A DNA stretch of 64,000 nucleotides, taken from positions 1 through 64,000 of the forward strand of contig CACMNK010000003.1 in the NCBI GenBank assembly GCA_902615145.1, in the 5' to 3' direction. Origin of the DNA: an uncultured Pelagibacteraceae bacterium. GTDB taxonomy: Bacteria > Pseudomonadota > Alphaproteobacteria > Pelagibacterales > Pelagibacteraceae. This document shows positions 7,994-61,436 of this stretch, in pieces (the first letter of the stretch is position 1; every line of letters starts with the position of its first letter). The notes beneath the pieces are model-generated. The model worked only from the letters and a program-made list of their open reading frames with translations, was not told the DNA's origin and made no database searches. Both the position numbers and the translations under genes were made by a program.

Positions 7994-8010
7994 TTTAGAA
8001 TAATTTTAAA
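7994..8010. promoter_or_regulatory. Putative Irr box (ICE) in the irr/fabA divergent spacer
   Basis: The sequence reads TTTAGAA-TAA-TTTTAAA, matching the alphaproteobacterial iron-control element TTTAGAA-N3-TTCTAAA at 13 of 14 fixed positions. It lies 19 bases before the GTG of the Fur-family gene and about 60 bases before fabA, so it could serve autoregulation, fabA, or both. The match is visible directly; binding by the neighbouring regulator is inferred. Confidence 0.6.
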
Positions 8011-8028
8011 TAACAATACGGTTAAACA

Positions 8029-8427
8029 GTGAAATATATCGATAAATTAAGAAATTCTGGATTACGACCAACTAAACAAAGACTTCAAATATGTGAGGTT
8101 TTATTTGATACAGAAAAGACATTTCATTTCACGATTAATGAGCTAGATCAGAAAATCAAGAAGCAAAAAAATAACAAAATTTCATTAGCAACGATTTATA
8201 ATACTGTTCATGCTTTCGAAAAAAAAGGATACCTTAAACAGATTCCGATTAATTCAAACCAAACTTATTTTGATACAAATATTACCGATCATCATCATTT
8301 TTATGATTTAAAAGATGAAAAGTTGATTGATTTAGAAAATTCTGATGTAGGCCCAATAAACATCTTGAAAAAAATAAACGGCAAAAAGATTAAATCTGTT
8401 GAAGTTCTTGTTAAGCTAGAAGACTAA
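8029..8427 (+). CDS. irr: Fur-family regulator, Irr-like (iron/heme response)
   Basis: A 132-residue Fur-superfamily protein with a GTG start. The N-terminal winged helix spans about 1-75 (LRNSGLRPTKQRLQICEVLF, then LATIYNTVHAFEKKGYL with the recognition helix). The C-terminal dimer domain contains a triple-His DHHHFYDL at 88-90, where Irr proteins bind heme and Fur proteins bind metal. It lacks the paired C-terminal Cys motifs of Fur, Zur and PerR (the only Cys is at 22), which favours Irr. Its position next to fabA-fabB-fabI also matches the irr locus of many alphaproteobacteria. Irr controls heme and iron genes under iron limitation. Irr-type boxes lie at 7994 and 8473. Confidence 0.82.
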   Translation: MKYIDKLRNSGLRPTKQRLQICEVLFDTEKTFHFTINELDQKIKKQKNNKISLATIYNTVHAFEKKGYLKQIPINSNQTYFDTNITDHHHFYDLKDEKLIDLENSDVGPINILKKINGKKIKSVEVLVKLED

Positions 8428-8462: not shown

Positions 8463-8491
8463 TTGACAGCTTTTTAGAATCATTATAAACT
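8463..8491 (+). promoter_or_regulatory. katG sigma70-type promoter
   Basis: A perfect -35 TTGACA (8463-8468) is followed after 17 bases by TAAACT (8486-8491) as -10. Transcription would start near 8498, leaving a leader of about 27 bases that contains a clear AGAGGA ribosome-binding site at 8515-8520 before the ATG at 8525. Confidence 0.6.
8473..8489. promoter_or_regulatory. Putative Irr box (ICE) inside the katG promoter
   Basis: TTTAGAA-TCA-TTATAAA matches TTTAGAA-N3-TTCTAAA at 13 of 14 fixed positions. It fills the space between the -35 and -10 elements of the katG promoter, so a bound protein would block RNA polymerase. This fits a heme enzyme placed under iron/heme control by the adjacent Irr-like regulator; the binding itself is inferred. 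Confidence 0.55.
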
Positions 8492-8524: not shown

Positions 8525-10762
8525 ATGAGTACTGAAAATTTTAAAGATAAATCTTTTAAAGCAAATCAAATGAGCAAATGTCCTTTTACGGGTGCAGGAA
8601 CACCTGCAAAATTTTCTGCAGGACGGGGACAAACGGTGAGAGATTTTTGGCCTAATAGCCTAAATCTTAAAATTCTTAGTCAGCACTCAAATTTATCTAA
8701 CCCTATGGATAAAAAATTTAGTTACGCTAAAGAGTTTAAAAAACTTAATTATAAAGCACTGAAAAAAGATTTAAAAAAATTAATGACTGACTCACAAGAG
8801 TGGTGGCCAGCTGATTACGGTCATTATGGACCACTTTTTATTAGGCTTGCTTGGCACGCTGCAGGAACTTACAGAACTGGTGATGGTAGAGGTGGAGCTG
8901 GAACAGGTAATCAAAGATTTGCTCCTCTTAATTCTTGGCCAGATAATGTGAATTTGGATAAAGCTAGATTGCTTTTATGGCCGATCAAAAAGAAATACGG
9001 AAGAAAAATTTCATGGGCTGATTTATTTATACTTGTTGGTAATGTTGCATTAGACTCAATGGGTTTCAAAACTTTTGGTTTTGGAGCTGGTAGAACAGAC
9101 ATTTGGGAGCCAGAAGATGATATCTATTGGGGCTCGGAAAAAGAAATGTTAGGTGTTGAGAGATATAGTGGAAAAAGAGATTTAGAACAACCATTGGGTG
9201 CTTCACATATGGGTTTAATTTATGTTAACCCCCAAGGTCCTGATGCTAATCCAGATCCAAAACTTGCAGCACATGATATTAGAGAGACATTTGGCAGAAT
9301 GGCTATGAATGATTATGAGACTGCCGCATTAGTTGCTGGAGGACATACGTTTGGAAAATCGCATGGTGCAGCATCTGAGTCATTTAAGGGTCCTGATCCT
9401 GAGGCTTCAAAACTTCAAGACCAGTCCACCGGATGGAATAGTGGTTACAAATCTGGAAAAGGTGTTGATACAATAAGCAGTGGTATAGAGGGCGCCTGGA
9501 CTCAAAATCCCATTAGATGGGACATGGGCTATTTAGATTGTTTATATGGGCATGAATGGGAGCTTACAAAAAGCCCTGCTGGTGCTCACCAATGGACGCC
9601 TAAGAAAAATGGTCAAGAAATTAAAATGGTTCCTGATGCACATAAGAAAGGTGTGCTACACCCACCAATGATGCAAACAACTGATATCTCAATGAAAGTT
9701 GATCCAAGTTATGGCCCTATCACAAAACATTTTCATCAAAATCCAAAAGAGTTTCATGATGCTTTTGCAAGAGCTTGGTTTAAATTAACTCACAGAGATA
9801 TGGGTCCTAGAGTTTGTTATCTTGGTAGTGAAGTTCCAAAAGAACAGTTAATTTGGCAAGACCCAATAGATAAACCAAAATATAAACTCAAGTCAAAAGA
9901 TATTAAAGATTTGAAAAATAAAATTTCTAAATCAAAAATATCAATTTCAGATTTAGTATCAACTGCTTGGGCGTCAGCGTCAACTTTTAGAGGATCAGAC
10001 AAGAGAGGTGGTGCTAATGGTGCAAGGATAATGTTAGAGCCCCAAAAAAATTGGAAAGTTAACAATCCTAAGAAGTTATCAAATGTGATTAAAGCCTTGA
10101 GTAAAATCAAAAGTAAATTTGACAATAATAAAAAAAATGTTTCAATGGCTGACTTAATTGTACTAGCAGGTGGTGTTGGAGTCGAAATGGCCGCAAAAAA
10201 AGCTGGTTATAAAGTTAAAGTTCCATTTTCAGCAGGAAGAGGAGATGCGAGACAAGACCAAACTGATATTAATTCATTTGGCCTTCTAGAACCACAAGCA
10301 GATGGCTTTAGGAATTACTTGAATGGCGGAGCTTCAAATGTTTCTGCAGAAGAAAAATTAGTAGATAAGGCTCAGTTGATGGGTTTAACAGCGCCTGAAA
10401 TGACAGCTCTAATAGGTGGAATGAGAGTTTTAGATACTAATTATGACAATTCAGAACATGGTGTTTTTACAAAAAGACCTGGTAGTCTTACAAATGATTA
10501 TTTCATAAACTTATTAGATATGAATACCACTTGGAAAGAAGAAGATAAATCAGAGCAGACTTTTGTCGGGAAAGACAGAAAGACACAAGAAATTAAATGG
10601 AAAGCGACGAGAGTTGATTTAATTTTCGGTTCAAATTCTCAATTAAGAGCCCTAGCAGAGGTTTATGCATGTGAAGATTCAGGGGATAAATTTATTAATG
10701 ATTTTATCGCAGCGTGGGTTAAAGTAATGAATTCGGACAGATTTGACTTGAAATTAAATTAA
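8525..10762 (+). CDS. katG: Catalase-peroxidase
   Basis: A 745-residue, two-domain heme enzyme of normal KatG length. The N-terminal catalytic domain has the distal [12 protein letters not shown] (Arg107, Trp110, His111), proximal His274 in [12 protein letters not shown], and the three residues that form the KatG Trp-Tyr-Met crosslink: Trp110, Tyr233 (LIYVNPQGP) and Met259 ([10 protein letters not shown]). The C-terminal half is the inactive duplicated peroxidase domain. It removes hydrogen peroxide in the cytoplasm. A strong ribosome-binding site AGAGGA precedes the ATG. It lies 97 bases after the irr-like gene, with an Irr box inside its promoter. Many streamlined marine bacteria lack a catalase, so its presence here is notable. 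Confidence 0.97.
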
Positions 10763-10782: not shown

Positions 10783-11394
10783 ATGCCATCAGTAACTTTC
10801 GATGATTTTTATGAGGTCCCAGACCTTAATTTTGATATCACAAGATTAAGAGAAGATTTAGATAAAATTTTAAAAGCTAAAAAATTTAATTCTCCTGGAG
10901 TAACACACTTTGGTGCAATATCATTAAACCAAATTCCAAATGACAAAAGCTCTATTGAAGGAAATAATATACGAGGAAAATATTGGACTATAGCAGATGA
11001 AACTGGAAAAGAAGTTTCTAGAGATGTTGATATAGATGAGTCTAAATATACTCAATTAATCCCTGAATTTGAGAATACTTATTTTAAAGAAGTTTATAAC
11101 ACTTTAAGTAAAAGATTTAAACTGGGTAGAGTAAGACTTTTGTTAAAAGAGCCAAGGTCCACACTCAGCTGGCATAAAGACCCAGAGTGTAGGCTGCACG
11201 TACCAATTATTACTAACAAGGGCTGTTCGATGGTAATCGAGAATGTTGCAAAACACCTCCCTGCTGATGGAAAAGTTTGGATAACAAATAACACAAAATA
11301 TCACAATTTCTTCAATGGTGGGGAACAAGCAAGAATACATCTAGTAGCTTGCGTGCTAGAAAGCCCTTTTAAGGAAAAAAATGGAAATAACTAG
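10783..11394 (+). CDS. Aspartyl/asparaginyl beta-hydroxylase-like 2-oxoglutarate/Fe(II) oxygenase
   Basis: A 203-residue protein with a double-stranded beta-helix oxygenase pattern: STLSWHKDPECRLHVPI (candidate iron ligands His131 and Asp133) and YHNFFNGGEQARIHLV (His174, with Arg184 as likely 2-oxoglutarate anchor). This resembles the AspH-type catalytic domain. The substrate is unknown: it could be a protein side chain or a small molecule. It starts 20 bases after katG, so it probably shares its transcript and perhaps its iron-linked control. Its stop overlaps the next gene by 14 bases. Confidence 0.7.
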   Translation: MPSVTFDDFYEVPDLNFDITRLREDLDKILKAKKFNSPGVTHFGAISLNQIPNDKSSIEGNNIRGKYWTIADETGKEVSRDVDIDESKYTQLIPEFENTYFKEVYNTLSKRFKLGRVRLLLKEPRSTLSWHKDPECRLHVPIITNKGCSMVIENVAKHLPADGKVWITNNTKYHNFFNGGEQARIHLVACVLESPFKEKNGNN

Positions 11395-11620
11395 CGGGAT
11401 ATTTAAGGCAGCAGGTAATATCTATCAAAATAACAAAGGTTCTATTCTTAGGACAATAATCTATACAATCGGACACTTTGCAATAGCTATAACTGTTCTA
11501 ATGTTAGTTGCTGACGTTTCTTTCATGATTGCATTGACTGACGCGATTGTTGAACCAATAGCCAACTCCGTTTGGTATTTTATTTTGGACAAATGGTGGG
11601 CCAGTAGGTCGAAAAACTAA
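11381..11620 (+). CDS. Small DUF2061-type membrane protein
   Basis: A 79-residue protein with two hydrophobic segments (about 27-45 and 47-65). The RTIIYTIGHFAIAITVLMLVADVSFMIALTDAIVEPIANSVWYF pattern resembles DUF2061 small inner-membrane proteins, ending in a basic tail with KWWASRSKN. No function is established for the family. It overlaps the oxygenase gene by 14 bases, which implies coupled translation in a katG-oxygenase-DUF2061 unit. Confidence 0.6.
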   Translation: MEITSGIFKAAGNIYQNNKGSILRTIIYTIGHFAIAITVLMLVADVSFMIALTDAIVEPIANSVWYFILDKWWASRSKN

Positions 11621-11666
11621 AAAAAATTTAAATTAAATCATAATTCTTTTTTTCGAGATAAATCTT

Positions 11667-11685
11667 GATAATAATTATCATTATC
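11667..11685. promoter_or_regulatory. Fur-type box 1
   Basis: GATAATAATTATCATTATC matches the classical 19-bp Fur box GATAATGATAATCATTATC at 17 of 19 positions. With two more bases on each side it forms perfect TTGATAAT / ATTATCAA arms (11665-11687). It lies 76 bases before the ATG of the Cys-rich micro-gene at 11761. Confidence 0.55.
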
Positions 11686-11696
11686 AAAAAAAATGC

Positions 11697-11715
11697 GCTA
11701 ATGATAATTATTTTC
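11697..11715. promoter_or_regulatory. Fur-type box 2
   Basis: GCTAATGATAATTATTTTC matches the 19-bp Fur box at 16 of 19 positions. It starts exactly 30 bases after box 1, about three helical turns, so two dimers would sit on the same face of the DNA. The only close downstream gene on the plus strand is the Cys-rich micro-gene. Confidence 0.45.
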
Positions 11716-11760
11716 ACAGATTTTTCTTGAAAGCATTTTTCATAATATTATTTTAACTAC

Positions 11761-11940
11761 ATGCAAATTGAAAACTATAATTGTAAAAAATGCGGGCTTA
11801 CGATTTCTTCAACTTGTTCTAAATGTGATAAAGTAGTTGATGTTGAAGTTCTAGATGATGGTTGTATTGTGCAGAAAACAAAATGTGGAGATTGTGCAAA
11901 TACACCAGTAATCAAAGACGTTTGCGCGCAACAAAAGTAA
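11761..11940 (+). CDS. Cys-rich 59-residue protein of unknown function
   Basis: An open frame of 59 codons, ATG to TAA. The product has eight Cys: three CxxC pairs (8/11 CKKC, 19/22 CSKC, 42/45 CGDC) plus Cys35 and Cys55. The first two pairs, 7 residues apart, look like a small zinc-ribbon or Fe-S knuckle; the middle is acidic and beta-prone (VVDVEVLDDG). It has no signal peptide or membrane segment. I do not recognise the family. Two Fur-type boxes lie immediately upstream, suggesting a metal-responsive gene, possibly metal binding or storage. It is convergent with the SH3 gene. Confidence 0.6.
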   Translation: MQIENYNCKKCGLTISSTCSKCDKVVDVEVLDDGCIVQKTKCGDCANTPVIKDVCAQQK

Positions 11941-14798: not shown

Positions 14799-16367
14799 TT
14801 AAAATACTAGTAGGCCAAGAATTACAAGCAATAAAAAACCTATTATAGATTGATTTCTGAAAGCTACCATTTCAGATCTTTTATCACTTAATGCATTATA
14901 AGAATTTGAGTTTTGAGGAATTTGTCCACTAGCCAAAAAAGTAAGAGCCTGATTAGCTTTATCCATTATTTCTGGAAATTCTGGTAATCTTTTTATTACT
15001 TCCGATGTGCTATTAATTGTTTCATTAATTGTAGTCATAGGGTTTTTTGTCTCTTTCAACCAGTTTTCAAGAATAGGTTTAGATGTAGTCCAAATGTTTG
15101 TTTCAGGATTCAATTTTCTTGCTACTCCTTCAACTACCACCATTGTTTTTTGTAACATTAATAACTGGGGTTGTGTCTGCATATTAAATTTTTCTGTGAC
15201 ATCAAAAAGTTGTTTTAACAATTTTCCACCGGATATATCTTTAACTGCTTGACCAAAAATAGGCTCACCTATAGATCTTAAAGCTTGAGCTAGATCATTT
15301 ATGGGGACATCTTTTGGTACTAGACCCGCGATTAAATGAACTTCAGCAACTTTTTTGTAGTCTCTTTGAATAAAACCAAAGAGTATTTCAGCTAAAAATC
15401 TTTTACTCATTTTATCGAGCCTGCCCATAATTCCAAAATCAATAGGAACAATATAGCCATCATTATCTATCAAAATATTTCCTTGATGCATATCAGCATG
15501 AAAAAAACCATCTCTAACGGCATGTCTAAGAAAATTTTGGATAATATCCTCTGCTAATTTCTTTGTATTTATATCTCTTTTTTTTAACTCACTAGTTTCT
15601 CTAATCGAGATACCCTCTACCCAGTCTAGTGTCATTACATTTTCACTAGTATAATTCCAGTAAATTTTTGGAACATTAAAACCAATATCATTTTTTGTGT
15701 TTTCTGCATATTCATTTGCAGCAGCAGCCTCAAACCTTAGATCCATTTCAAGATTAGTAATTTCTTTGAGTAAAAAAACTACTTCTACAAGTTTTAATCT
15801 TTTTGTTTTTTTTATTAAAGACTCAACTAAGAATGCAAATAACATAATAGCATCAATTTCATCGTTGAAAATTTTTTTAATATCAGGCCGCAAAATTTTT
15901 ATTGCAACATCTTTTATTATTCCATTGTCGTCTATTTTAGCTTTATGAACTTGAGCTATAGATGCAGCTGCAACAGGTTCGCTTAAATCAATAATTGAGT
16001 TATAGGTATCAATTCCTAAATCATCATTAATAATTTTTTTGGCTTGATCTTGGGAAAAAGGAGGCAATCTATCTTGAAGATTTTCAAGTTCCTTTGATAA
16101 ACCTTCTCCAATAATGTCTGGTCTTGTTGCTAAGAACTGACCTAGTTTTATAAAGGTTGTACCCATTGACTCTAAAGATTTAGATAACCTTTCTCCTTCA
16201 TTATTGGTTACACTTGTGTTATTTTTTGATGAAAAAGAGAAAGATAAAATTTTAAATAAAACTTTAATAGACAAAGGTGGCTCTTGAAATTTTGAGGTTA
16301 TATTTAAAATATCTGATTTTGCGATTTTTCTTCCAAGTTTAAATAATGTTATTAATTTTTTAATCAT
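14799..16367 (-). CDS. ubiB: UbiB/ABC1 atypical kinase for ubiquinone biosynthesis
   Basis: A 522-residue protein with the UbiB signatures: the KxGQ region TFIKLGQFLATRPDII (about 70-90), Ala-rich AAASIAQVHKA, invariant Lys in VAIKILRP, catalytic loop HADMHQGNILID and metal-binding DFGIMGRL. A C-terminal hydrophobic stretch (IIGFLLLVILGLLVF) anchors it to the membrane. I chose the ATG at 16367, because it overlaps the ubiE stop by one base (TAATG) and gives the typical N-terminus. An ATG four codons upstream (16379) is also in frame. It supports coenzyme Q assembly as an ATPase-like factor. Confidence 0.93.
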   Translation of the reverse strand: MIKKLITLFKLGRKIAKSDILNITSKFQEPPLSIKVLFKILSFSFSSKNNTSVTNNEGERLSKSLESMGTTFIKLGQFLATRPDIIGEGLSKELENLQDRLPPFSQDQAKKIINDDLGIDTYNSIIDLSEPVAAASIAQVHKAKIDDNGIIKDVAIKILRPDIKKIFNDEIDAIMLFAFLVESLIKKTKRLKLVEVVFLLKEITNLEMDLRFEAAAANEYAENTKNDIGFNVPKIYWNYTSENVMTLDWVEGISIRETSELKKRDINTKKLAEDIIQNFLRHAVRDGFFHADMHQGNILIDNDGYIVPIDFGIMGRLDKMSKRFLAEILFGFIQRDYKKVAEVHLIAGLVPKDVPINDLAQALRSIGEPIFGQAVKDISGGKLLKQLFDVTEKFNMQTQPQLLMLQKTMVVVEGVARKLNPETNIWTTSKPILENWLKETKNPMTTINETINSTSEVIKRLPEFPEIMDKANQALTFLASGQIPQNSNSYNALSDKRSEMVAFRNQSIIGFLLLVILGLLVF

Positions 16368-17072
16368 TATATTTTCCAACCACTATGAATTGAAACTATA
16401 CCACCAGATAAATTTGTATAATTACACTTATCAAATTTACTCTCATGCATTAAGTCTATGAGTTCATCTTGATTAACAAAATTTTCAATACTTTTAATTA
16501 AATACTGGTAAGGTTCTTTTTTTCCTACAACTATTTTTCCAATTTCTGGAATTAGCTTAGAATATTTTTCATAAAGATTATTTAAATTAGTGTTTTGAAT
16601 TTTTGAAAATTCAAGACATAAAAACCGACCACCTGGTTTTAAAACTCTGTATGCTTCTTTCAATGATTTTTTTATATTTTTTGTATTTCTTAATCCAAAA
16701 CTAATTGTATAAAAATCAAATGTATTACTTGAAACAGGCAAACTTTCAGCTGAGGATATATACCATTTTAGATTTTTACATTTAGGCAATTTTTTTTTAG
16801 CAATATTTATCATTCCCTTATTTGGATCAACACAAGTTACCTCGGCATTTTTTCCTACATTTTTTTAAGTAAATTTTAGCTATATCTCCTGTTCCACAAG
16901 CTACATCTATTAACTTTTGGTTTGTAGAAGGGTTCATCATATTTAAAAGGTTTTTTTTCCATATTCTATGCACACCTAGTGACATTAAATCGTTCATTAG
17001 GTCGTATTGATCGTAAACCTGGTTAAAGACATTTTGTACCAGTCCTTTTTTATTTTGAAGATACTGTTGCAT
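16367..17072 (-). pseudogene. ubiE: ubiE demethylmenaquinone/ubiquinone C-methyltransferase, interrupted by a +1 frameshift
   Basis: Two minus-strand frames together encode a UbiE of about 235 residues. The 5' part (from 17072) has the family start VYDQYDLMNDLMSLGVHRIWKK and the SAM site VACGTGDIAKIYLKK. The frame then runs into a stop at 16827. The 3' part continues with VTCVDPNKGM in the other frame, then AESLPVSSNTFDFYTISFGLRN, VLKPGGRFLCLEFSK and a normal C-terminus. The frames join if one base is removed from a run of seven A (plus-strand T run 16860-16866). All other parts are intact and the downstream ubiB is whole, so this is more likely a sequencing error or slippage site than a dead gene. 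Confidence 0.85.
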
Positions 17073-36816: not shown

Positions 36817-39800
36817 ATGACTGAAAAATTATTAGTTCCTGATATTGGCGATTTTGAAAATGTTGAGGTAATTGAATTACTTGTTGCAGAAGGTCAAGAA
36901 GTTAAAATAAATGATCCAGTGGTCACTATTGAAAGTGATAAATCTAGTGTTGAAATTCCATCAACTTTTTCAGGGAAAGTTGAAAACATTGAGGTAAAAG
37001 TTGGTGATAAAGTTTCAAAAGGGGACTTGCTTCTCAATATATCAAGCCCTAGTAAAAAATTGTCTAAATTAGAAGAGGTTCCAAAAAATACTGAAAATTT
37101 AATTTTAGAGGCGGAAAATTCTTTAAATAAAAATAAAGAACAAGAAAAGCAAATTCCAGAATTAGAGAAAGAAAAACCTAGCAAAATTGAAGTTATAAAT
37201 GAGGGTGATATTGATCCATTAGAGACACGTGAATGGATAGAATCTCTATCAGATGTCATCGAAAAAGATGGTAATAACAGAGCTCACTATTTGATTAAGG
37301 AATTAATTAATAAAGCTTATATGGAGGGCGCTAATATTCCATACACGCAAAATACCCCTTATATAAATACGATTCCTGTGAGTGAGGAGAAGAAATCAAA
37401 TGGTGATCAGAATATAGAAAGAAGGATTAGGTCATTAATTAGATGGAATGCTGCTGCAATGGTAGTAAGAGCAAATAAAAAATTTCCTGAACTTGGAGGT
37501 CATATTGGAACTTTTGCATCTGCGGCTACTTTATATGATGTTGGAATGAATCATTTTTGGAGAGCTAAAAATAATAAATTCGGTGGAGATCTTATTTACT
37601 TTCAAGGTCATAGTGCACCTGGTATGTATGCTAGAGCATTCCTTGAAGGAAGGCTTAATGAAAAACAATTAGACAGTTTTAGACAGGAAGTTAAGCCTGG
37701 CGGTTTATCTTCATATCCACATCCTTGGTTAATGCCAAACTTTTGGCAATTTCCAACAGTCTCTATGGGTTTAGGACCAATGTTAGCGATTTATCAAGCG
37801 AGATATATGAAATACTTGATTAATAGAGGCCTAATTAAGGATGAGGGTAGAAAAGTTTGGTCATTTTTAGGTGATGGAGAAATGGATGAGCCAGAGTCTT
37901 TAGGAGCAATTGGTTTAGCAGCTAGGGAAAATTTAGATAATCTTATATTTGTTATAAATTGTAACCTTCAAAGATTAGACGGTCCAGTGCGAGGTAATGG
38001 AAAAATTATACAAGAATTAGAGGGAATTTTTAGAGGAGCCGGATGGAATGTTATTAAGGTAATTTGGGGTTCTTATTGGGATTCACTGTTAGCGAATGAT
38101 AAAACAGGCCACCTTATTAAGACAATGAATGAAACAGTTGATGGAGAATATCAAGCAATGAAAGCAAAAAATGGAGCTTATGTTAGAGAAAAATTTTTTG
38201 GAAAATATCCAGAAACTTTGGAACTTGTCGCAAGTCTTTCAGATAAGGATATTTGGAGATTAAATAGAGGTGGGCATGATCCCCATAAAGTTTTTGCAGC
38301 ATATGACAAAGCATCTAAAAATGTCGGTAGTCCCACTGTAGTAATTGCTAAGACTATAAAAGGTTATGGCATGGGTAAAAGTGGTGAGAGCGTAAATACA
38401 ACTCATCAGACTAAAAAATTAGATGTTGAAGACTTAATGTATTATAGAGATAGATTTGATGTTCCATTAACAGACCAGCAGGTCAAAAATATTGAGTATT
38501 ATAAGCCAGATCAAAATTCTCCTGAAATAAAATACATTAAAGAAAGAAGACTTCAGTTGGGTGGCTTTATTCCTGAGAGAACTACTTATGCAAAACCTAT
38601 TAAAGCACCTCCAAAAGACATTTTTGATAATATGAAAGTTTCAACTGGTGAAAAAGAAATGTCGACCACAATGGCATTAGTTAGAATGTTGACAAATCTT
38701 TTGAGAGATAAAAATGTTGCACCGAGACTGGTCCCAATCATTCCTGACGAAGCTAGAACATTTGGAATGGAAGGTTTTTTTCAAAAGATTGGAATTTATG
38801 CACATGAAGGTCAAAAATATGAGCCAGAGGACTCTGCTCAACTAAGTTCGTATAAAGAGGAAAAGAGCGGTCAAGTTTTAGAGGAAGGTATTAACGAAGC
38901 TGGAGCAATGTCATCGTGGATAGCTGCTGGAACTTCATATACCAATCATGATATTGAAATGATCCCAATTTATCTTTTCTACTCAATGTTTGGCTTTCAG
39001 AGAATTGGGGATTTTGCTTGGGCAGGTGCAGATAGTCAGTCTAGAGGATTTTTAATTGGAGCTACTGCTGGAAGAACAACTCTTGCTGGAGAGGGTTTAC
39101 AACATCAAGATGGTCATAGTCATTTAATGGCTTCAACTATTCCTAATTGTAGATCATATGATCCAACATTTCATTACGAGCTTGCAGTCATTTTCCGAGA
39201 AGGTTTAAGAAGAATGCATGAGAAAAAAGAAAATATTTTTTATTATATTACAACTATGAATGAAAATTATCCTCATCCAGAAATGCCAAAAGATAAATCA
39301 TGTGAGGAGGGTATTTTAAAAGGAATGTATAAAATAAAGGAGTTTAATAAGTATAAAAAAACTAAAATTCAATTTCTTGGATCTGGCACAATATTAAGAG
39401 AAATGATAGCTGGTGCAGAAATATTACAAAATGAATATCAAATCGATAGTGAGATTTGGAGTGTGACAAGCTTTAACGAATTAAGAAGGGACGGTCTTGA
39501 AGTAGAGAGATATAATCTTCTAAACCCTGATAAAGAACCTAAAAAAAGCTATGTAGAAAAATGTTTAGGTAACACTGAAGGACCAATTTTAGCAGCCTCT
39601 GATTATATGAGAATGAACTCCGATCAGATAAGACCTTATGTAAACAAAAGTTTTTATTCACTAGGAACAGATGGATTTGGACGAAGTGATACAAGAAAAG
39701 AGTTAAGAAAGTTTTTTGAGGTTGATAAGGAACATATCACAACATATGGATTGAGCATTTTAGCTAAGGAACAGCTTATTGCATCAAAATATGCTAAAGA

Positions 39801-39855
39801 AGCAATTAAAAAGTATAAGATTGACACTGACAAACCTATGCCAACAAAACTATAG
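36817..39855 (+). CDS. aceE: Pyruvate dehydrogenase E1 (homodimeric type) with an N-terminal lipoyl domain
   Basis: A 1012-residue protein. Residues 1-76 form a complete lipoyl domain with the lipoylation Lys42 in IESDKSSVEIPS; a charged, Glu/Lys-rich linker follows to about 128. From about 129 (DIDPLETREWIESLSDVIEKDGNNRAHYLI) it is the full AceE of about 885 residues, with the thiamine-diphosphate motif GDGEMDEPESLGA and INCNLQRLDGP. It decarboxylates pyruvate and acetylates the lipoyl group of E2. A lipoyl domain on E1 is not the usual arrangement, since it normally sits on E2. It is followed by aceF one base after the stop. No E3 (lpd) is in the window. Confidence 0.94.
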   Translation: MTEKLLVPDIGDFENVEVIELLVAEGQEVKINDPVVTIESDKSSVEIPSTFSGKVENIEVKVGDKVSKGDLLLNISSPSKKLSKLEEVPKNTENLILEAENSLNKNKEQEKQIPELEKEKPSKIEVINEGDIDPLETREWIESLSDVIEKDGNNRAHYLIKELINKAYMEGANIPYTQNTPYINTIPVSEEKKSNGDQNIERRIRSLIRWNAAAMVVRANKKFPELGGHIGTFASAATLYDVGMNHFWRAKNNKFGGDLIYFQGHSAPGMYARAFLEGRLNEKQLDSFRQEVKPGGLSSYPHPWLMPNFWQFPTVSMGLGPMLAIYQARYMKYLINRGLIKDEGRKVWSFLGDGEMDEPESLGAIGLAARENLDNLIFVINCNLQRLDGPVRGNGKIIQELEGIFRGAGWNVIKVIWGSYWDSLLANDKTGHLIKTMNETVDGEYQAMKAKNGAYVREKFFGKYPETLELVASLSDKDIWRLNRGGHDPHKVFAAYDKASKNVGSPTVVIAKTIKGYGMGKSGESVNTTHQTKKLDVEDLMYYRDRFDVPLTDQQVKNIEYYKPDQNSPEIKYIKERRLQLGGFIPERTTYAKPIKAPPKDIFDNMKVSTGEKEMSTTMALVRMLTNLLRDKNVAPRLVPIIPDEARTFGMEGFFQKIGIYAHEGQKYEPEDSAQLSSYKEEKSGQVLEEGINEAGAMSSWIAAGTSYTNHDIEMIPIYLFYSMFGFQRIGDFAWAGADSQSRGFLIGATAGRTTLAGEGLQHQDGHSHLMASTIPNCRSYDPTFHYELAVIFREGLRRMHEKKENIFYYITTMNENYPHPEMPKDKSCEEGILKGMYKIKEFNKYKKTKIQFLGSGTILREMIAGAEILQNEYQIDSEIWSVTSFNELRRDGLEVERYNLLNPDKEPKKSYVEKCLGNTEGPILAASDYMRMNSDQIRPYVNKSFYSLGTDGFGRSDTRKELRKFFEVDKEHITTYGLSILAKEQLIASKYAKEAIKKYKIDTDKPMPTKL

Positions 39856-39856
39856 A

Positions 39857-41119
39857 ATGCCTAAAAAAGATATAAAAGTTCCAAATATTGGTGAATTCAA
39901 AGATGTAGAGGTTATTGAAATTTTAATCAAAAAAGGTCAAGAGATTAAAAAAAATGATCCTTTAATCACAATTGAAAGTGATAAATCGAGTGTTGAAATT
40001 CCCTCATTACACGATGGACTAGTTACAGAATTAAACTTAAATGTTGGTGATAAGGTTTCTGAGGGTAGTAAGATTTTAGAAATTGAATTAAAAGACAACA
40101 ATGTAGAAACTAAAGTAATACAATCAACTAAAAAAGAATACATCAAAAAAAACAAAATAGAAATTGAAAAAGAAGTTAAACCAAAAAATATTATCGTAAA
40201 AGATTTTTCAAAAAAAACTTCAGCCTCACCAAAAGTCAGAAAATTTGCTAGAGAACTTGGTGTTGATATTAGTAAAGTTGAAGGTAGTGAAAGATTAGGA
40301 AGAGTAACTGAAAGTGATGTTAAGTCATTTGTTGCAAAAACCCCTGAGAGAAATATTGAAAAAGAATTCAAAAAAGATGAAATGATAGAACTAGAGTATC
40401 CTCACTCTGAATTTGGAAAAACGGAAATAAAGGATATCCCAAGAGTAAAAAAACTTTCGTCTAAATATCTTATGAATTCTTGGTCCAATATTCCTCATGT
40501 GACCAATCATGACGAAGCAGATATAACCGAATTAGAGGAATTTAGAACTTCTCTAACAGATATTTACACTGGAGAAAAAAAAAAAATTACTCCTTTAGCT
40601 TTTATTGTCAAAGCTTTAACTGCATCACTTAAAAAATTTCCAAATTTTAATTCATCTATCGATGAAATTGATAAAGGAAAAATGACTCTAAAAAAGTATT
40701 ATCACATTGGAATAGCTGTGGATACGAAACATGGGCTTATGGTACCAAAACTAAGAAATGCTGATAACAAGAACATAACTTTAATAGGAACTGAGCTTAA
40801 AAAATTAAGTGATCAATGCAGAAATCTTAAAATTGATAAAAAAGAATTATTTGGTGGTTCTATGACTATAACAAGTCTAGGAGGTATTGGTGGTTCTTTT
40901 TTTACACCTATTATTAATTACCCTGAAGTCGCAATTTTAGGAGTTGGTAAATCTCAAAAAAAACAAATTTTTATTGATGGAAAGTTCATAACACGAACAA
41001 TTCTACCTTTATCTTTATCATATGATCATAGAATAATTGATGGAGCTGAAGCTGCTCGATTTAACAACGATTTGAAAGATAATCTTGGAAAAAATTTTGC
41101 TTATAAATTAGCTGTATAA
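39857..41119 (+). CDS. aceF: Dihydrolipoamide acetyltransferase, E2 of pyruvate dehydrogenase
   Basis: A 420-residue protein with one lipoyl domain (Lys43 in ESDKSSVEIPS), a Lys-rich linker, a peripheral-subunit-binding domain (about 116-152, ASPKVRKFARELGVDISKV) and the catalytic domain ending DHRIIDGAEAARF with the active His. It transfers acetyl from lipoyl to CoA. I chose the ATG at 39857, one base after the aceE stop, because it gives the normal start; an ORF from 39779 would overlap aceE by 77 bases with an unrelated extension. Its single lipoyl domain is closely similar to that on E1. Confidence 0.95.
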   Translation: MPKKDIKVPNIGEFKDVEVIEILIKKGQEIKKNDPLITIESDKSSVEIPSLHDGLVTELNLNVGDKVSEGSKILEIELKDNNVETKVIQSTKKEYIKKNKIEIEKEVKPKNIIVKDFSKKTSASPKVRKFARELGVDISKVEGSERLGRVTESDVKSFVAKTPERNIEKEFKKDEMIELEYPHSEFGKTEIKDIPRVKKLSSKYLMNSWSNIPHVTNHDEADITELEEFRTSLTDIYTGEKKKITPLAFIVKALTASLKKFPNFNSSIDEIDKGKMTLKKYYHIGIAVDTKHGLMVPKLRNADNKNITLIGTELKKLSDQCRNLKIDKKELFGGSMTITSLGGIGGSFFTPIINYPEVAILGVGKSQKKQIFIDGKFITRTILPLSLSYDHRIIDGAEAARFNNDLKDNLGKNFAYKLAV

Positions 41120-60065: not shown

Positions 60066-61436
60066 TTAGTCGAACTTCATTTTTTGAATAAAGTTATTCA
60101 AATCTTCAGGTGTTCCTAACCCCCACATTTTATCTACTTTATGAATTTTTATTTTTTTATTTTTCTTTAAAAATTCATTATAAACTGGACAGACATAAAA
60201 CTCATTATTCACTCTAATATTTTTTCTAATCATTTCTTCAGCAGATTTGACGTAATCAGAACCATGTTTCCAATAATAAACTCCAACAGTTGCGTTCCTC
60301 GAAATAACTTTTTTTTCTGCAACTTCTGTTACAAATCCCTCATTATTACATTTTGCATAAGACCATTTTGGATGGATTGCTTCAAAAGTTAAAATTGCAC
60401 CATCTAAATTTTTTGAGTTAAAGTCATAAAATGCTTTTGAACTATTCCAATTAATATATTGATCAGAGTTTGCAATTATTAGTGGATCATCATTGTTGAT
60501 ATACTCTTTAGCTAATAATGTTGTGCAAGCTGCTCCTTCAGTTAAGTGATCTAATTCAATAATTTTGCAATTGGGTTGTAAAATTTTTAAAACACTTTTA
60601 ATATTATATTTTTCCTGATGTTCTTTCTGAATAATAAATATGTAATTAGCTTGTAAATTTAAACTTTCAATTACCCATTGTATCATTGGTTTATTGTCAA
60701 TCTCAATTAAAGGTTTTGGGAATATATAACCAGCATCGAAAAATCTTTTACCTGCTCCAGCCATAGGAATTAAGATATTCATCTTATTATCTTCCCATGA
60801 TACATTTTTTTTATTAATCATTTTTTTAGACGTTAAGTTGAGCCTAATTTTTTTTAAATCTAATTCTTCAATTTTTTTAATCGGTAAAAGTTTAGCTCCA
60901 GAAGAAATGGCAGCTTCCCTACCGTAGTGAGAATCTTCAATTATTAGAGCTTCTGACGGATATATCCCAAACTTAATGAAAATTCTCAGATATATTTCTG
61001 GATTCGGTTTTGGTTTGTTAATGTCTTCATTCGATAATTTAAAGTCTACGTATTTTTCAATGCCAAGTTTATTTAAACAAATATTTAAAGTAGAATTTAC
61101 AGCGTTTGTAGCTACAACAATTTTATATTTATTGTGCAAATTCCTCATTATTTTTATTATTTTATTATTTTTTTTAATCTTTCTTTTAAGTATTTCTGAT
61201 GTTATTTTTTGTTTAAATTTCTGTATCTTTGAAAAAAATTTTTTAGGAAGTTTTTTAGTTTTTTGAAGAAGTTTTAATTTTTCAATTGTAGGTAAACCAT
61301 CAAAAATTTTTACATGATCATCAATAGAAATTTCATCAAAATTATATTTTTTTAATGCTGAATTTAAGGCTTCAAAATGTATTAATTTTGTATCAACTAA
61401 CACTCCATCCAGATCAAATATAATAACCTTTATCAT
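60066..61436 (-). CDS. HAD phosphatase fused to a sugar nucleotidyltransferase
   Basis: A 456-residue two-domain protein. Residues 1-200 are a HAD-type phosphatase/phosphomutase: DLDGVLVDT (Asp8, Asp10), ATNAVNS (about 110), KPKPNPEIY (Lys141) and EDSHYG (Asp168). From Met219 a nucleotidyltransferase domain follows with MAGAGKRFFDAGYIFPKPLIEI, WVIESL, ANSDQYINW and GTPEDLNNF near the end. Together they could dephosphorylate and then activate a sugar phosphate as an NDP-sugar for surface glycans. The sugar is not known. The internal ATG at codon 219 could allow a second product. The downstream gene is a GDPD-like enzyme. Confidence 0.85.
   Translation of the reverse strand: MIKVIIFDLDGVLVDTKLIHFEALNSALKKYNFDEISIDDHVKIFDGLPTIEKLKLLQKTKKLPKKFFSKIQKFKQKITSEILKRKIKKNNKIIKIMRNLHNKYKIVVATNAVNSTLNICLNKLGIEKYVDFKLSNEDINKPKPNPEIYLRIFIKFGIYPSEALIIEDSHYGREAAISSGAKLLPIKKIEELDLKKIRLNLTSKKMINKKNVSWEDNKMNILIPMAGAGKRFFDAGYIFPKPLIEIDNKPMIQWVIESLNLQANYIFIIQKEHQEKYNIKSVLKILQPNCKIIELDHLTEGAACTTLLAKEYINNDDPLIIANSDQYINWNSSKAFYDFNSKNLDGAILTFEAIHPKWSYAKCNNEGFVTEVAEKKVISRNATVGVYYWKHGSDYVKSAEEMIRKNIRVNNEFYVCPVYNEFLKKNKKIKIHKVDKMWGLGTPEDLNNFIQKMKFD

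Follow-up and report, generated by a model that had tools for sequence, protein, structure and literature searches.

A conserved 59-residue cysteine-rich protein of Pelagibacterales, very probably controlled by Fur, and its possible part in iron sparing

The stretch of DNA analyzed here, 64,000 nucleotides on contig CACMNK010000003.1 of an uncultured Pelagibacteraceae bacterium (hereafter, the window), contains a short, unlisted open reading frame downstream of a catalase-peroxidase gene. This raises the question of whether the frame encodes a protein, what controls it, and what its product may do. An original prediction, made from the sequence without database searches, had proposed a 59-residue Cys-rich protein. 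The frame was found exactly at the predicted coordinates (Table 1) and its translation is MQIENYNCKKCGLTISSTCSKCDKVVDVEVLDDGCIVQKTKCGDCANTPVIKDVCAQQK. Eight Cys account for 13.6% of its residues (8/59); all of them had been described as lying in CxxC pairs, which holds for six (C8/C11, C19/C22, and C42/C45), while C35 and C55 stand alone. This protein and its direct homologs are referred to as type A.

Table 1. Features of the type A locus in the window, with the basis of each assignment.
Feature	Position	Strand	Basis
ICE-like site TTTAGAATAATTTTAAA between fabA and irr (divergent)	7994..8010		similarity to the ICE consensus
Irr-like Fur-family regulator	8029..8427	+	FUR 7.6e-20 (Pfam); IrrA 9.4e-37 but below NCBIfam cut-off
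ICE-like site TTTAGAATCATTATAAA upstream of katG	8473..8489		similarity to the ICE consensus
katG, catalase-peroxidase	8525..10762	+	NCBIfam search; co-occurrence with type A
Asp/Asn beta-hydroxylase-like 2-oxoglutarate oxygenase (AspH)	10783..11394	+	Pfam; katG operon member in close relatives
DUF2061 predicted membrane protein (PF09834)	11381..11620	+	Pfam; recurrent neighbor
Fur box 1, TGATAATAATTATCA, perfect 7-1-7 inverted repeat TGATAATnATTATCA	11666..11680		conserved upstream of homologs
Fur box 2, TGATAATTATTTTCA, one mismatch	11702..11716		conserved at approx. −59 in close relatives
59-residue Cys-rich protein (type A)	11761..11940	+	open reading frame with ATG start; homologs; dN/dS; Cys invariance

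Homologs were readily found. In a scan of a genome collection, the best 80 of 244 matching stretches all came from Pelagibacterales records, and 126 of the 297 Pelagibacterales genomes in our sample gave a match, 107 of them to type A and 19 to type B, its sister family. Within the same genus, several complete genomes do not carry the type A gene. Of the 133 type A loci, 131 could be parsed, and all of these have the Cys spacing 3-8-3-13-7-3-10; it was confirmed by eye in the remaining two, so that all eight Cys are invariant. Conservation reaches 90% or more in approx. 30 of the 59 columns, which argues against a loose Cys-rich tail. For other genera, and for the single genome from outside the order, identity to the window sequence drops to about 54–56%. 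Comparisons with the window sequence (n = 71) gave a median dN of 0.036 and a median dS of 1.28, with a ratio of 0.023; type A is under strong purifying selection. As dS is near saturation at this dN, no indels or frame-disrupting changes occur among the homologs, and the reading frames are intact, the alternative of a Fur-controlled small RNA or a chance reading frame making no protein is effectively refuted and its probability is negligible, even if strong Fur boxes alone would suit a RyhB-like RNA. The reading frame is almost certainly a real protein-coding gene. No relatives of type A or type B were found in the viral contigs searched, and thus nothing suggests a phage gene.

Both Fur boxes were assigned to the type A gene since they follow the DUF2061 gene, which ends at 11620, and precede the type A start codon; box 1 is lengthened to position 11686 by an overlapping TAATTATCATTATCA. 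A Fur box (at most two mismatches, within 200 bp upstream) was detected at 125 of the 133 type A loci, compared with approx. 1.7% of shuffled upstream regions used as a control. Among type A loci below 86% identity, 42 of 43 have a box despite many unrelated gene neighborhoods, and the sole type A homolog outside the order (L112) is without one. The Fur-type control region of the original prediction is thereby confirmed, and the boxes are kept in relatives although the neighborhoods vary. The source genome encodes a Fur protein (G000:C10:14441-14809) in addition to the Irr-like one, and carries a perfect or one-mismatch Fur box just before the gene of an iron(III)-binding ABC protein (C6:33847) and before iscR-sufB (C34:2335), where the genes were named by eye from the sequence and the regulon is based on pattern hits alone. 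The promoter-region box of type A is thus also that of iron genes in its own genome. Because of this common box type, the signal appears to be iron and not zinc, and a Zur reading was dropped; of the predicted iron- or zinc-responsive expression, the iron part is retained and the zinc part is unlikely. With up to two mismatches, the pattern matches 35 sites in the source genome vs. 16 for the control, and lone weaker hits are not taken as evidence because the pattern is also present elsewhere in the genome. A perfect Fur-box sequence (L119, G000:C7:12259-12273) was also seen with nuoA on one side, a TPR protein gene on the other, and no obvious iron gene close by. Judged from these patterns, type A is very probably under Fur control, with Fur presumably acting as a repressor rather than an activator. 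Candidatus Pelagibacter ubique has both Fur and Irr, and iron limitation induces its sfuC and suf genes; the type A gene is not listed in these data (PMC2864753).

The gene order fabB-fabA / irr-katG-AspH-DUF2061-Fur boxes-type A is found in 65 of 80 close loci, and the others are mostly interrupted by a contig end or have one gene missing. Type A lies directly 3′ of katG in L157, L158, and L163, past fabI on the opposite side of irr-katG in L107, and apart from katG in at least eight further neighborhoods. Of the 107 type A genomes, 105 contain katG, and the two without it are approx. 90% complete. The association has a Fisher value of 8e-32 (297 genomes), a statistic which ignores ancestry, and therefore the cases with unlinked type A and katG weigh more; part of the co-occurrence may be due to shared ancestry. 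KatG does not require type A, since 23 KatG-bearing genomes of the same genus are without type A and, with type B present in one of them, about 22 apparently have neither small protein. Most offshore SAR11 genera possess katG (PMC12636525). An MsrB-like protein (methionine sulfoxide reductase B, identified by eye) is encoded near type B in L099 and L100 and near type A in L161, a further hint of a link to oxidative stress. With the ICE (Irr box) consensus as the pattern, a site with one mismatch was found before katG in 74 of 78 loci and a site with at most two mismatches before irr in 70 of 76 loci. The conservation of these ICE-like sites suggests that Irr may control katG in SAR11. In Rhodobacter, katE expression and peroxide resistance both increase when irr is deleted (PMC3413700).

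The DUF2061 gene, upstream of type A in the katG arrangement, is located immediately downstream in L097, L148, L151, and more; L091, L092, and L173 have it close to type B. In Caulobacter, a DUF2061 gene is Fur-repressed: limiting iron raises its expression 13-fold and a fur mutation 6-fold (PMC3751524). In L091 (3939-5236) and L092 (3845-5131), type B forms a cluster with DUF2061 and with a gene in divergent orientation that seems to encode a winged-helix regulator, possibly of the MntR/DtxR type.

Some further features of the window were recorded. On the minus strand, a UbiE-like methyltransferase (16367-17072) is seemingly split into the frames 16367-16813 and 16827-17072, likely by a frameshift or an assembly error. 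A 1012-residue pyruvate dehydrogenase E1-like protein (36817-39855), apparently with its own N-terminal lipoyl-type domain, is followed by an E2-like protein (39779-41119), and an apparent fusion of a HAD-type phosphatase and a sugar nucleotidyltransferase is encoded at 60066-61436 on the minus strand.

Type B is an unnamed family of 61–64 residues; its 63-residue form follows the pattern MATYECSKCGMSVNATC.KC...CCGQDMSC. It shares with type A approx. 30–40% identity, the first CxxC-x7-CxxC half, a K-C motif and the total of eight Cys. In most members, C35 and C45 of type A are replaced by a CC pair and by a Cys at the C-terminus; some keep the equivalent of C45 and lack the last Cys, and at least eight Cys are always present. 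None of 20 type B loci scanned has a Fur box, and none of the 297 genomes contains both families (107 with type A, 26 with type B), an exclusion which may partly be explained by ancestry. Type B is not confined to SAR11; it also occurs in other Alphaproteobacteria and in a further class. The Cys swaps between the families suggest two four-ligand sites. C8/C11 would pair with C35/C55 (or the CC pair), and C19/C22 with C42/C45 (alternatively, a His or the last Cys). Two metal sites in type A are, in our estimate, somewhat probable.

No Pfam-A or NCBIfam model matched type A above its cut-off, in agreement with the original statement that the family is not a recognized one, and no significant match to a solved structure was obtained among PDB sequences. 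A model computed with AlphaFold2 from 26 close homologs, without metal, was of low confidence (pLDDT 65, pTM 0.42) and gave random-level matches only in Foldseek. Haloarchaeal C(P)XCG zinc-finger micro-proteins (HVO_2753, HVO_0758) resemble type A in standing alone, in their length below 70 residues and in having several CxxC motifs, but there is no significant sequence match (6ydh, E 0.85–3.3), which places type A outside this group; to our knowledge, they are not Fur-controlled. For such haloarchaeal zinc finger-like mini-proteins, it has been reported that they may be metal-free or bind other metals, and that their metal binding is not decided by sequence and AlphaFold2 (PMC11241148).

Several activities were weighed for the product. 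The best sub-threshold Pfam matches are the double zinc ribbon DZR (PF12773; 0.0012) and Zn_ribbon_3. DZR has two closely spaced CxxC knuckles like type A, but the match reaches 19.4 bits, far below the gathering cut-off of 27.3, and covers residues 5–29 only, so that type A does not belong to it. These matches would fit a zinc-ribbon adaptor or regulator, which would dock on the ribosome, on RNA polymerase or on some other protein to alter expression or activity in iron starvation, and small zinc-finger proteins in such roles are known, e.g., Brz in Halobacterium (PMC2253796). We consider this candidate unlikely. A rubredoxin-type or Fe-S redox helper with one Cys4 iron site, serving in electron transfer or Suf-dependent cluster repair as Bfd does for bacterioferritin, draws its case from the Fur box type common to type A and iscR-sufB and from type B. 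The CxxC...CCGxDM pattern and the YxCxxCG start of the latter resemble desulforedoxin, and its sub-threshold NCBIfam matches are an RCKP-type rubredoxin-like domain (E 0.004) and the DVU_1557 redox protein (0.026). Yet no rubredoxin, desulforedoxin or BFD model was matched above cut-off, by type B no more than by type A in the case of the first two; type A has no corresponding fold match, has an extra CxxC insert and lacks the CC pair, and CxxC-x7-CxxC differs from rubredoxin spacing. Moreover, an iron protein would be costly to induce without iron. Bfd itself is a small Cys protein under strong Fur repression (57-fold in Caulobacter; PMC3751524), but type A has another Cys layout and no match to Fer2_BFD (PF04324). 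Bfd was not found in 21 relatives, an absence which is compatible with a redox helper but neither favors nor disfavors replacement of Bfd by type A. Taken together, we rate the redox helper as a fairly doubtful possibility.

The original prediction had also considered a metallothionein-like store. The Cys content is high for a SAR11 protein, and the co-occurrence with katG would tie such a metal store or thiol sink to peroxide defense. However, eight Cys in 59 residues is a low proportion, their spacing is wholly fixed, and many non-Cys residues are conserved, so type A looks like a folded domain instead; further, no metallothionein family in Pfam or NCBIfam was matched, and an iron store would be of little sense if produced when iron is scarce. 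This suggestion thus lost ground and is now quite improbable, while the metal chaperone and the Fe-S helper that the original prediction also named stay among the candidates.

The reading we prefer is that of a folded protein with two Cys4 sites, induced via Fur on iron loss and belonging to an iron-sparing response that is connected with KatG; taken as a whole, we give it an even chance. The type A product would be a small folded cytoplasmic protein, whose eight Cys hold two tetrahedral Cys4 metal sites, with C8, C11, C35, and C55 forming the first and C19, C22, C42, and C45 the second; zinc would be the most likely metal. Iron-loaded Fur on both boxes would keep the gene off. When iron drops, Fur would be released and type A made alongside iron(III) uptake and Suf Fe-S assembly, and Irr, at its own boxes, would presumably lower heme-dependent katG in iron shortage. 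In KatG-reliant SAR11 lineages, type A could then be the Fur-induced side of iron sparing, where it might act as a metal-site adaptor or as a thiol/metal partner, protecting or replacing iron-dependent functions. An iron-sparing function linked to katG is put forward tentatively. Rather speculative is the broader idea of an eight-Cys, two-metal family with two branches, of which the type A branch was put under Fur and works with KatG, or replaces it, when Irr silences katG.

Iron limits life across much of the ocean, where SAR11 belong to the most abundant bacteria. For Candidatus P. ubique, few iron-responsive genes have been reported, with sfuC named as the iron-stress marker. Small Fur-controlled Cys proteins are already known as a class, whereas the type A family is undescribed in the libraries searched. 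Type A, found in a large KatG-bearing set but not in several complete genomes of the genus, is a candidate iron-stress marker and connects iron control with peroxide defense in a streamlined genome. If type A is indeed an iron-sparing protein with two metals, streamlined genomes would swap iron-costly functions for a protein of 59 residues; and if Fur acts on type A and Irr on katG as proposed, the most abundant bacteria of the ocean would possess a two-regulator iron switch.
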